Below are positions 3,995-22,281 of a stretch of 64,000 nucleotides of DNA, piece after piece. Every line of letters begins with the position of its first letter. Within the stretch, counting starts at the first letter, position 1. The position numbers and the translations under genes are program-made. The notes beneath the pieces were generated by a model. The model had not been told where the DNA came from, ran no database searches, and saw nothing but the letters and a program-made list of their open reading frames with translations. The DNA lies in assembly GCF_030656345.1 (NCBI RefSeq), contig NZ_JAUSNR010000010.1, positions 372,001-436,000 of the forward strand, given 5' to 3'. The DNA is from Pseudotabrizicola sp. Its GTDB lineage: Bacteria; Pseudomonadota; Alphaproteobacteria; Rhodobacterales; Rhodobacteraceae.

Positions 3995-4657
3995 ATGTAC
4001 AACTGGGATTTCTATACGGTCCTGCAATCCTTTGATCTTTTCGTCCACGGGATCTGGATCACGTTCCTTTATACGGTGGGCTCGGTTGCACTGGGTGTGA
4101 TCATTGGCCTTGCGGCCTGTTTCGCGCGCCTGTCCCGCTTTGCGCTGCTGCGCATAACCGCGCGCAGCTATCAGGAACTGTTTCGCTGCACACCGCTGCT
4201 GGTGCAGATCCTGTGGGCCTATTACGCGCTGCCGATGCTGCTGGGGGTCAGCATCTCGAACACCACCGCCGGATTGCTGACTTTGTCGCTGTATGTCGGG
4301 TCGTTTTATGCCGAAATCTTTCGCGGCGGCATCAATGCCATCGACAAGGGCCAACGCGAAGCCGCTGCGGCAATCGGCATGTCCGGCGCGCAGGCCATGC
4401 GCCGGATCGTTCTGCCACAGGCGGTCAAGAAAATGCTGCCTGCGTTCATCAACCAGTCCGTGATCCAGGTAAAGAACACCTCGCTGCTCTATGCGATTTC
4501 GGTTGCCGAACTGACCTATATGACTGCGGTGGTGAACTCTGAGACCTACCGCCCGCTGGAGGCCTATTCGCTGGCGGCAATCATGTATTTCGTGATGCTG
4601 TTCCCGCTGACGCAGATTGCAGACCATTTCGAACGCCGTATGCGGCGCAGCGACTGA
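3995..4657 (+). CDS. Amino-acid ABC transporter permease
   Basis: A 220-residue inner-membrane protein of the HisMQ/GlnP type with several hydrophobic segments. It carries the cytoplasmic loop that contacts the ATPase (EAAAAIGMSGAQAMRRIVLP), the conserved EAA motif of ABC importers. The ATG at 3995 follows a GGGAGGAG site. Only one permease gene is present, so the channel is presumably a homodimer. It lies between the binding-protein and ATPase genes. Confidence 0.9.
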   Translation: MYNWDFYTVLQSFDLFVHGIWITFLYTVGSVALGVIIGLAACFARLSRFALLRITARSYQELFRCTPLLVQILWAYYALPMLLGVSISNTTAGLLTLSLYVGSFYAEIFRGGINAIDKGQREAAAAIGMSGAQAMRRIVLPQAVKKMLPAFINQSVIQVKNTSLLYAISVAELTYMTAVVNSETYRPLEAYSLAAIMYFVMLFPLTQIADHFERRMRRSD

Positions 4658-18907: not shown

Positions 18908-19005
18908 TGGTTTGGCGGGCAAGACCGGCACCCGACGATCCGTCAGGCGGTTGGCACCGTCGCGAAGAGCCGGAGCCATGCAGCAACTGGCGGACACGGA
19001 CCCGT

Positions 19006-19566
19006 TCAATCCAATCGTGCAGCAAGAAATGCGCGCCAGCCACCATAGCTGGTTGTGTCTTCGGATTGGTCCAGCCCTGCCTGCTCGACCACAAAGCCCA
19101 CCACATTCCGACCATCGGCAAGCGCGACGCGCCCCAGCCCGAGCGGAGACGGTATCTGCACGAGGAGCGCACCGAGCATCGGCGTCGACACGGACCAGAG
19201 TTCAAGAGCAACCGACGCGCCCTGTGCCGCCACCCGGAAAAGCCCGGGACGCGCAGGTGGTCCCCCGGCCAGAGCGAAAAGCCGGTAGCAGGGCGCGGTT
19301 TCGGTCGCTTCCAGAAACCGCCCGCCAAGGCTTGTGATCTGGGGGTTGAGCGGCAGGCCCGCCATATGTGCCCCGACAGGCGCGATGGCCGTCTCGCCCG
19401 GCAGGGGCGCGGGTTGTGGCAGGGCAGTGGCGGGCAGTGGCTTGCCGGTCGCCCCCATCGGCACCTGCGCATCGGCCTGCAGCGCCTGCGCCAGCCCTTC
19501 CGTCAGCGCATCCTGACCCGACCGTGCCAGAAGCGTCACGTTTCCGGGCCCGCCATCGCTGCGCGC
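19006..19566 (-). pseudogene. Allophanate hydrolase remnant (C-terminal part only)
   Basis: The translated segment begins at the end of the amidase domain (GGPGNVTLLARSGQDAL) and runs through a complete AtzF-type C-terminal domain, including PLNPQITSLGGRFLEATETA and YRLFALAGGPPARPGLFRV. An intact allophanate hydrolase is about 600 residues; the first 400 or so, including the Ser-Ser-Lys amidase catalytic residues, are missing. Its 5' side is fused out of frame to a cupin gene remnant. Allophanate hydrolase converts allophanate to ammonia and CO2 in urea and biuret breakdown. It is the last member of a decayed operon. Confidence 0.85.
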
Positions 19567-19846
19567 CGCTATGGGTTCGGTGCGTGGTGCCCGCAGGATT
19601 GAGAACAAGTGCGCCCGCGCGATAAGTGCCCCGCTCGTCCGATTGCGCGCCGCTCAGGACAAGGATCGTCTCAAGACCCGGGTGAAAATAGGCCGGTATG
19701 CTCGCGCCCGGAGCATAGCGTAACAACGCGACATCTGGCGGGCCATCATAAATCTTCGCAATCTCGACCCCGTCGCGGAAGGGCTTGAACGCGGCGTTGG
19801 TCCAGTCTTCCGGCAGGAATCCGGGAAAGTGTAGTGGCTCAGACAT
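19567..19846 (-). pseudogene. Cupin-domain protein remnant, truncated at 3' end
   Basis: The start is intact: an ATG at 19846 with AGGAGG upstream. About 90 residues follow with a single cupin barrel signature (YHPGLETILVLSGAQSDERG, then NPAGTTHRTHS). The sequence then runs out of frame into the allophanate hydrolase remnant, so the last strands of the barrel are lost. Small cupins often accompany urea- and biuret-type hydrolase genes; the role is unknown. A read-through product would be about 214 residues with a nonsense tail. Confidence 0.7.
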
Positions 19847-20204
19847 TCAGCGCCCTCCTGTCCTGATCGGTCGTGGCGGTCCATCCCACGATTGCGCCTT
19901 ACGCGCGGATCATCGCCAGCGCCGCTGCCTTGAATTCGGGGAAGTAGCTTTCTGTCGCATCCTCGACCAACAGCGCGTCAAAGCCCCGGTCTTTGGCTTC
20001 GCGCATGGTCGTCTGCACGCAGACCTCTGTCGTCACACCGGCGAAAAACAGCGTGGTGATGCCAAGGCCGGTCAGCACCTCCATCAACAGGGTGGCGTAG
20101 AATGCGCCCTTTCCCGGCTTGTCGATCACGACCTCTCCGGGCAAAGGGGCAAGGGCGGGTATGATGTCGGCACCGGGCTCCCCCGCGATCAGGATGCGGC
20201 CCAT
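19839..20204 (-). pseudogene. Isochorismatase-like cysteine hydrolase remnant (biuret hydrolase-like)
   Basis: About 120 residues of an isochorismatase-fold amidohydrolase are preserved: [14 protein letters not shown], then [20 protein letters not shown], with the nucleophile cysteine in TEVCV. This GVTTEVCV pattern is found in biuret hydrolase and ureidoacrylate/N-carbamoyl-type enzymes. The N-terminal half with the catalytic aspartate is missing. An in-frame TAA at 19899-19901 interrupts the normal C-terminus, which continues beyond it (GAIVGWTATTDQ) to a natural TGA at 19839. The TAA stands where a CAA glutamine is expected, a single C-to-T change. Confidence 0.8.
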
Positions 20205-20220
20205 GGCAACTTCGTCGCCT

Positions 20221-20328
20221 GCGCATGTCGCGGCCTGACAGCCAGAAGCGGCGGCCCGTCCCGTTCCGGTCAAAACTGCGGAAGGCGATGTTTTCGGCCA
20301 TGCTCATCCGGGCCGCGCAGGCGTTGCG
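20221..20328 (-). pseudogene. ABC transporter ATPase remnant (short internal fragment)
   Basis: A 36-residue reading-frame fragment, including [17 protein letters not shown] and FWLSGRDM, matches the start of the second nucleotide-binding domain of the two-domain ATPases that work with BMP-type binding proteins. Walker motifs are absent. It is joined directly to a permease fragment on its 5' side and to the hydrolase remnant on its 3' side, so at least two internal deletions occurred here. Confidence 0.6.
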
Positions 20329-20844
20329 CACCAGATGGTTCATCAGCGCAATGGCGATATAGGCCAGCAGCGGGGAAGAGATCGTCTCGTTCACGCCCCG
20401 GTAGTGGCGCAATCCCCCGGCAAGGCCGATCCACAGGCCCCCCACCAGCATTGCCCCCGCAGCCATGACCGGCAGCGCAACCACAGGCGCGGTTCCGGTC
20501 AGCGCCCCCCCAAGGCCCCGGCGGCCACCCCGCCCAGCACGATCGCACCTTCGCCGCCAATGACGACAAGGCCAAGCCGCGGAGGCAAAGCCACGCACAG
20601 GACGGCAAACAGCAGGGGGCAGTCCGTGACAGCGTGTTCTGCCACGAAAAAGCCGATCCATATCCACCACGCCAGACCAGCGTGAAATACTGGACCGGCG
20701 ACTTGCCTTGCGTCAGCAGAAACAGGCTGAACACGGCAAAGCCCGCCATCAGCGCAAGGAGCGGGATGGCCACAGGCTCTGCCCTGCGGGCAAGAGTGGG
20801 AAGGACGGCAGCCCCCCTGATTCGATGATTGCCTGATCTGCCAT
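20329..20844 (-). pseudogene. BMP-type ABC transporter permease remnant with three frameshifts
   Basis: The start (ATG at 20844) and about 170 codons of a nucleoside/BMP-type permease can be rebuilt. It opens with MADQAIIES and the first membrane helix IPLLALMAGFAVFSLFLL, then YFTLVWRGGYGSAFSWQNTL, then ALPPRLGLVVIGGEGAIVLG and LRHYRGVNETISS. The segments lie in three different frames. The shifts fall at runs of G or C near 20808, 20615 and 20508. The rest of the permease, roughly half, is deleted. Intact relatives are about 350 residues. Confidence 0.8.
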
Positions 20845-20871
20845 GCCGCCCCCCCGGTTCCCAAGCCCGCC

Positions 20872-21435
20872 CTACGACGTTGACCCGACAACGCCTTCAA
20901 CAAGATAATCCATGCTTTCCAGTGCGATGTCGGTCTCGACCAAAGCCTCGCCTGCGGCCAGCAGGGGCTTGCCGGTATTGTCGTTCAAAGGTCCCTTCAG
21001 GGCCGCGAATCCGCCCGCCATGATTTCGGCCTTCACCGCTTCGAACTGCGCGCGGGCGGCGTCGCTGACGGAGGCACCAGGCGAAGACATCTTGATGAAC
21101 CCCTCCGCCGGCCCGCCGCGCACGAAATTGTCGATGGTCCCGCCGTCCAGCACGGTCTGAACCATGCCGGTATAGACGCCCGCCCAGTTCCATTCGGCCC
21201 CGGTCAAATACTTCTCGGGGGCAAGCGCGGACTGGTCGGCGTGGTAGCCACAGATGAACGCGCCACGCCGCGCGGCCGTTTCCATCACCACTTTCGGCCC
21301 GTCGACATGGCAGGTGATGACATCGCAGCCCGCATCCGCCAGCGCATTCGTGGCTTCGGCCTCTTTCACGGCCAGTGACCATTCCCCGGTAAAGATCACC
21401 TGGCAGGTGATCGACGGATCGACCGCCCTCGCCCC
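20872..21435 (-). pseudogene. BMP-family ABC transporter substrate-binding protein remnant (C-terminal half)
   Basis: About 185 residues of a basic-membrane-protein-family binding protein are preserved in one frame, from LGARAVDPSITCQV through FTGEWSLAVKEAEATNALAD and CDVITCHVDGPKVV to a normal stop at 20872. The signal peptide and N-terminal lobe are missing. The break lies at about 21435, where the sequence continues straight into a LysR gene fragment on the opposite strand, so one deletion removed both 5' ends and the shared promoter region. Confidence 0.82.
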
Positions 21436-22128
21436 CAGAAGGCAGGCAGCGGATTACGAAAAGCTCAAGGGCCAGATCGCCGATCTGCGGGGCGAGCGGC
21501 GCGGCCATGTTGCCATCGCCTGTTCGCAGGCCTTCGTTCCCTATTTCCTGCCCGCCACTGCATCGGGACTTACCGCCGCGATCACCCTGGCGTCAGCTTC
21601 AGCGTGCGGGTCCGTGACCGGGCGGCGGCGGAAACCGCGCTCGCCGATCACAGCGCCGACATTGCCCTGATCTTCGAGCCTGTCCGTCTGTCCGAGGTGC
21701 AGGTGCTTGCCAGCGTTCGGCAACCGTTCCATGCCGTGATGGCGGCGGACCATCTGCTTGCCAGCAAGGCCGTGGTCCGGCTGCGCGATTGCGCCCTGTT
21801 CCCCGTGGCACTTCCCACGGCGGTCTATGGCGTGCGCCACCTGATCGACGTCGCGCTGGTCCGGTTGTCCATCGAGCTGCCCTCGATGATAGAAACTGAC
21901 AGCTTCGATTTCATGCGGCATTATCCAGAACAGGAATGGATCATCAGCTTTCAGATGCAGGTTGGTCTTCCAGACTCCTACCCCTCTGTCGTCACGCGCC
22001 CGATTGACCCCCGGGATGTGCCTTCCGGGCGGCTCTATCTGTGCCAGTTGCGCAGCCGCACCCTTCCCGTCGCGGCGGCGAAATTTGCGGCCCTTCTCGA
22101 GCGGGAAATCGACCTGCTGGAAACATAA
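21436..22128 (+). pseudogene. LysR-family regulator remnant (no DNA-binding domain, frameshifted)
   Basis: The linker and effector domain of a LysR regulator remain: YEKLKGQIADLRGERRGHVA, then the effector-domain start (HVAIACSQAFVPYFLPA). After a one-base frameshift near 21557 come HPGVSFSVRVRDRAAAETAL and the rest to a natural TAA at 22126. The N-terminal winged helix is deleted together with the 5' end of the divergent binding-protein gene. In the ancestral locus it was probably the divergent activator of the operon. Confidence 0.82.
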
Positions 22129-22192
22129 GCCGCAGCGCGGTCGGCACCTTGCCCGGCATCGCGGGAGATGTGGCCTCTGCCGTTTATAGCAA

Positions 22193-22218
22193 GCTTTGGC
22201 CCACGAAGGGCCAAAAGC
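22193..22218 (-). terminator. Putative terminator downstream of argF
   Basis: GCTTTGGCCC at 22193-22202 pairs with GGGCCAAAAGC at 22208-22218 around a 5-base loop, 64 bases beyond the argF stop on the minus strand. The stem is strong but only a short T-rich stretch follows. Confidence 0.5.
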
Positions 22219-22281
22219 CAGAGGATGCGGGTGCCAACCCGGTGCGCAACGGATTGCAAAAGCGTGCCGTGCGCAAAGCGC

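Follow-up and report, generated by a model that had tools for sequence, protein, structure and literature searches.

What do the remnant gene fragments between positions 19006 and 22128 of the window, the 64,000-nucleotide stretch of Pseudotabrizicola sp. DNA analysed here, represent, and is any of them still functional? The fragments derive from a LysR regulator, a BMP-type binding protein, a permease, an ATPase, an isochorismatase-like hydrolase, a cupin and the allophanate hydrolase AtzF, an array far beyond chance. An earlier note, made from the letters alone, had read them as a collapsed biuret-type operon that kept the order and strands of a functional locus, whose ancestor used biuret or a related compound and which was lost recently. 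Our analysis makes it highly probable that the locus is a dead operon, ancestrally a LysR gene followed by BMP-perm1-perm2-BiuH-ATPase-TrtA-cupin-AtzF, that was broken by four large deletions and small lesions (Table 1).

Table 1. Features of the relic, in window coordinates; J2 to J4 are deletion junctions described in the text.
Feature	Position	Strand	Remarks
Gap in collinearity with same-genus genome G009	18920-22277		lepA-hrpB-meaB-MFS-like block here in G009
AtzF (allophanate hydrolase) C-terminal relic	19006-19575	-	residues 412-597 of 600, mainly AH_C; PF21986 E 2.9e-43, tblastn
Cupin (Cupin_7) relic	19565-19846	-	residues 1-94 of 110; out-of-frame join to AtzF at J4
TrtA (triuret hydrolase) relic	19845-20219	-	residues 96-220 of 221; residues 1-95 including catalytic Asp24 absent
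In-frame TAA at TrtA Q202 codon	19899-19901	-	numbering by structure alignment
ABC ATPase relic (36 residues)	20221-20331	-	residues 353-388 of 512; bounded by J3 and J2
Permease 1 relic	20326-20791	-	residues ~23-178 of 369, three tblastn pieces; C-terminal half deleted
BMP-family substrate-binding protein relic	20872-21441	-	residues 186-374 of 374; N-terminal half deleted
LysR regulator relic	21437-22128	+	tblastn 70-109 and 111-291 of 302; helix-turn-helix part deleted

The fragments were identified with Pfam and with tblastn, using as queries the nine proteins of the annotated operon of Agrobacterium sp. MA01. Besides AH_C, the Pfam families Isochorismatase (E 3.4e-28), LysR_substrate (5.4e-17), Bmp (1.8e-11) and Cupin_7 (1.1e-13 for positions 19568-19846, 3.4e-5 for a shorter piece) were recovered, and no Pfam family was matched by the two permease frames. 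With the Agrobacterium queries, tblastn found no match in the locus for the second permease (perm2), nor for the biuret hydrolase BiuH except the 52% likeness of the TrtA piece itself. Summed from tblastn, about 992 of 3,020 residues are kept, roughly one third of the coding sequence, and the locus measures 3,123 bp versus 9,289 bp in Gemmobacter aquatilis (L013:1251-10539). Both of its ends are stop codons, apparently those with which AtzF and LysR originally terminated.

The intact syntenic locus that the earlier note had proposed to look for was found in Rhodobacteraceae and on an Agrobacterium plasmid. All nine genes are intact, with the same order and relative strands, in Gemmobacter aquatilis (L013), Tabrizicola sp. 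TH137 (L014) and on the plasmid of Agrobacterium sp. MA01 (L093), whose annotation reads LysR, BMP-family binding protein, two permeases, cysteine hydrolase, ATPase, cysteine hydrolase, cupin and atzF. The seven surviving genes of the relic keep the order and strands of this triuret/biuret operon, with perm2 and BiuH missing; the Pfam and tblastn matches and the intact operons thus confirm the first reading of the array.

The hydrolase piece was then used to survey named genomes, loci cut by contig or fetch ends being scored as lacking a gene. Among the best 80 of at least 564 confirmed relatives, BMP-perm1-perm2-BiuH-ATPase-TrtA occurs in this order at 65 of the 80 trtA loci; cupin-AtzF continues the order in 18 of these 65, six of which have the divergent LysR too. 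Over all 80 loci, a cupin was found in 37 (in two loci the sequence downstream of TrtA is too short to tell) and AtzF in only 27, so that AtzF cannot count as a constant member of the operon. A further 22 loci were chosen among family genomes and named records, some of them at contig ends; 9 of these have all nine genes in order with the divergent LysR. A formamidase-type CN_hydrolase gene lies between perm2 and BiuH in one locus (L094:7441-8457); it was rejected as a constant part of the operon, as L013, L014 and L098 leave no room for one. A DUF3830 protein after TrtA in Variovorax (L027), tried as a counterpart of the cupin, occurs in 1 of the 80 loci only. Two genomes of the same genus, G004 and G014, carry variant triuret operons (L095 and L096, respectively) with no cupin match and with an amidase 30-33% like AtzF beside TrtA, and a fuller AtzF (49%) stands at the start of L096.

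Alignment to relatives, the closest being only about 81% alike in DNA, bore out the truncations, frameshifts and interruptions claimed for the fragments: the relic has four large deletions, at least three frameshifts and one nonsense codon. At J1 (positions 21437-21447), BMP residue 186 is joined to LysR residue 70, with the loss of both 5' gene ends and the intervening region. J2 (position 20330) joins perm1 residue ~178 to ATPase residue 353, and BiuH and the second permease fell within this largest deletion. J3 (positions 20204-20222, with some 16 bases unassigned) joins ATPase residue 388 to TrtA residue 96, and J4 (positions 19565-19580) joins cupin residue 94 to AtzF residue 412. AtzF residues 1-411, the amidase part, are deleted, and the AtzF relic is an AH_C without the amidase domain, where the intact relative L013 has both. 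The perm1 frame is broken by two 1-base deletions, near positions 20514 and 20618, and LysR carries a 2-base insertion near positions 21555-21561; these lesions were seen against three relatives, and small gaps differing from relative to relative were excluded from the count. Repeats were rejected as the cause of the deletions, since only short two- or three-copy matches occur around the junctions.

A DNA search of 394 family genomes, the strain's own included and two candidates scored per genome, gave matches at E <= 1e-20 in 40 of them, again counting its own. In the other 39, the matches listed are pieces that stop at a junction or no more than about 30 bases away from one, and a junction-spanning match was found in none of the 393 other family genomes. 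The junction arrangement was likewise not found in 15 other genomes of the genus. Conservation of the fragments across species, which the earlier note had named as the sign that would speak against decay, was therefore not observed; disabling mutations together with an arrangement not conserved in relatives mark the genes as pseudogenes.

The timing of the decay was addressed by comparing, for five pieces, how long the window's terminal branch is at codon positions 1+2 and how long at position 3. The ratio for the window, followed in brackets by that of the other lineages pooled, was 0.064 (0.071) for BMP, 0.116 (0.183) for TrtA, 0.271 (0.326) for AtzF, 0.314 (0.243) for the cupin and 0.162 (0.277) for LysR; one row of the TrtA pool was misplaced, being the BiuH of G157, from a contig that starts within the ATPase gene. 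Relaxed constraint, the usual mark of a pseudogene, was not seen in this low-power test, all five pieces falling inside the range that the intact lineages span. Saturation is nearly reached at third positions, and the decay is probably younger than most of the terminal branch. The lack of relaxed constraint in the remaining codons makes the collapse look recent and late on its branch, as had been proposed, and the low power of the test leaves a late loss compatible with these ratios but not dated.

Long open frames and unrelaxed codons would also be expected if the locus were partly alive, with the C-terminal lobe of BMP or the AH_C domain still expressed for a use of its own. The AH_C piece retains a 200-aa open frame, and stand-alone AH_C frames of ~142 aa occur in two genomes of the same genus, G009 (L144:4099-4527) and G011 (L145 near 4213-4599, with one TAA inside), so that the AH_C piece alone could still be made. 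The neighbour of the G009 frame is presumably a NitT/TauT-type ABC transporter. Residual activity nevertheless seems very unlikely to us: the LysR-BMP interval, the expected promoter site, is deleted along with both 5' ends, BMP has lost the N-terminal half, the AH_C frame opens within what is left of the amidase, and no match in the 393 other family genomes spans the junctions.

Within the dead operon, the identity of the surviving hydrolase required a correction. The biuret/allophanate kind of operon stands, but the isochorismatase-like piece is, judged by its sequence, the triuret hydrolase TrtA, a paralogue of BiuH, and not the biuret hydrolase. In the intact operon, sequence and structure matches assign the first hydrolase to BiuH and the second to TrtA. 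The best structure matches of the first were 6azo and near-identical kin, including the sequence common to 6azn and 6azq (6AZQ is named as BiuH in PMC7948467), and that of L013 passes the NCBIfam BiuH equivalog cut-off (421 vs 370 bits). The second hydrolase of L094 stays below this cut-off (247 vs 370 bits), and its best structure match is 6xix, the structure of TrtA (PMC7948467).

For the piece from the window, 6xix was likewise the best solved structure and outranked 6xjm and 6azo, both biuret hydrolases. In a tree of 51 rows (the piece, 25 TrtA and 25 BiuH), whose bootstrap was not fully settled, it falls on the TrtA side of a 100/100 branch, apart from BiuH. Residues 134, 160 and 187, which are among the positions where TrtA and BiuH differ (PMC7948467), are A134, E160 and Y187 in the piece. 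Among the 25 TrtA rows, position 134 is A in 23 and M in 2, 160 is E and 187 is Y, versus S134, D160 and T187 in all 25 BiuH rows. A biuret operon with BiuH as the surviving hydrolase could be argued from the presence of BiuH in the intact operon, its shared fold and its 52% match in Agrobacterium. Identity to TrtA is higher, however, reaching 73% for the Agrobacterium protein and 82% for the second hydrolase of Gemmobacter aquatilis, and with the tree, the three residues and the structure ranking this reading becomes highly improbable. Of the catalytic triad, K129 and C162 are kept and D24 is deleted. The TAA replaces Q202, a residue that Gemmobacter aquatilis retains and with which the other subunit reaches across and holds the substrate (PMC7948467). 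On these residues, the piece is best described as a relic of TrtA, not an enzyme.

No replacement for TrtA, BiuH or the AH_C part of AtzF was detected in the strain's own genome record, a draft of 56 contigs that is 99.9% complete with a contamination estimate of 7.8%. The locus DNA had no second copy on any contig, and the AH_C family no match beyond the relic. The TrtA piece retrieved itself and three proteins at 27-30% identity, whereas the same query in G001, G004 and G014 found BiuH-type copies at 50-55%; no BiuH or TrtA is therefore in sight. G001, G004 and G014 are also the 3 of the 15 other genus genomes with TrtA-grade matches. Their TrtA does not stand beside the piece in the tree, where the latter joins 14 rows from other genera in a set of 15 (support 93/95, which is under the starred level). 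It is possible that the strain's lineage acquired the operon separately.

The chromosomal site has been rearranged as well. Collinearity with G009 runs up to position 18919 and resumes at position 22278, with flanks 87-89% identical. The gene series beside argF, which we take to be an MFS permease, meaB, hrpB and lepA, is conserved in G009, G011, G002 and G001. The block lies between both flanks on one contig in G009; a single contig also carries both flank genes in G002 and G001, about 11.5-12 kb apart, and the flanks of G011 are split between two contigs. In the strain itself the block is displaced to another contig (C24:55251-67335) and the relic occupies its old place, and thus fills a breakpoint. 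A tblastn search with the nine operon proteins over 15 kb on each side of the displaced block gave no match. When an empty target site was sought, the flanks of the new place matched scattered places in four relatives; the block may have moved either by transposition or by a larger rearrangement. That assembly or sequencing errors chopped up an intact operon, as the draft state and contamination estimate might suggest, is scarcely credible given four separate large deletions and small indels within 3.1 kb, flanks collinear with G009, and the lack of locus DNA, AH_C and TrtA/BiuH on any other contig. Beyond what the earlier note had described, the analysis adds the TAA at Q202, the lack of further copies in the genome and the rearrangement breakpoint.

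In the pathway concerned, TrtA converts triuret into carboxybiuret, decarboxylation gives biuret, BiuH forms allophanate and AtzF releases ammonia (PMC7948467). Because the TrtA piece survives and the intact operon has both TrtA and BiuH, the ancestral substrates were most likely triuret and biuret, which retains the biuret first proposed and extends it. The ancestor would have carried the full operon, TrtA, BiuH and AtzF degrading triuret and biuret stepwise and AtzF releasing the last ammonia; to judge from gene order, the BMP-type ABC transporter most likely imported these compounds. Four deletions would have taken the LysR-BMP interval with both 5' ends, perm2, BiuH and most of the ATPase, TrtA residues 1-95 and the AtzF amidase part, accompanied by the two frameshifts in perm1, the one in LysR and the stop in TrtA, and no working pathway product would be expected. 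As no intact enzyme copy was found elsewhere in the genome, the strain has most likely lost the ability to use triuret and biuret.

TrtA, BiuH and AtzF are encoded in one operon in Herbaspirillum sp. BH-1 and Rhizobium leguminosarum/johnstonii 3841 (PMC7948467). The locus on plasmid pRL10 of strain 3841 (L059) shows the same BMP-perm1-perm2-BiuH-ATPase-TrtA-cupin order with no AtzF in the 16.3 kb examined, whereas in the window every gene is truncated or gone. Clusters of bmpA-nupABC, biuH, trtA and atzF in ammonia-oxidising bacteria and comammox place a nucleoside-type BMP ABC transporter beside the same enzymes (PMC12625717); they are described as complete, and a trtB annotation is given for the ammonia oxidiser and none for comammox. 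Unlike these clusters as described there, the operon studied here has a cupin and no identified trtB. This cupin after TrtA is small and ChrR-like (e.g. L013:8374, L059:8395). It might have a working role in the pathway that has gone unrecognised, perhaps as the carboxybiuret decarboxylase (TrtB or a stand-in) in these alphaproteobacteria, a tentative idea that we consider rather unlikely. The literature searched, openly licensed papers without supplements, yielded nothing on this relic or on a role of the cupin, and titles and abstract openings nothing on biuret pseudogenes.

The locus is a new relic of a known kind of operon, and no long-standing question turns on it. It warns that an isochorismatase-like piece at such loci should not be called BiuH until residues 134, 160 and 187 have been checked. 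It is a documented case of a triuret/biuret operon lost from one Rhodobacteraceae lineage and kept by relatives, with the remains lying at a chromosomal breakpoint. The relic would further mean that two thirds of a catabolic operon can disappear before relaxed constraint becomes visible in the codons that remain.
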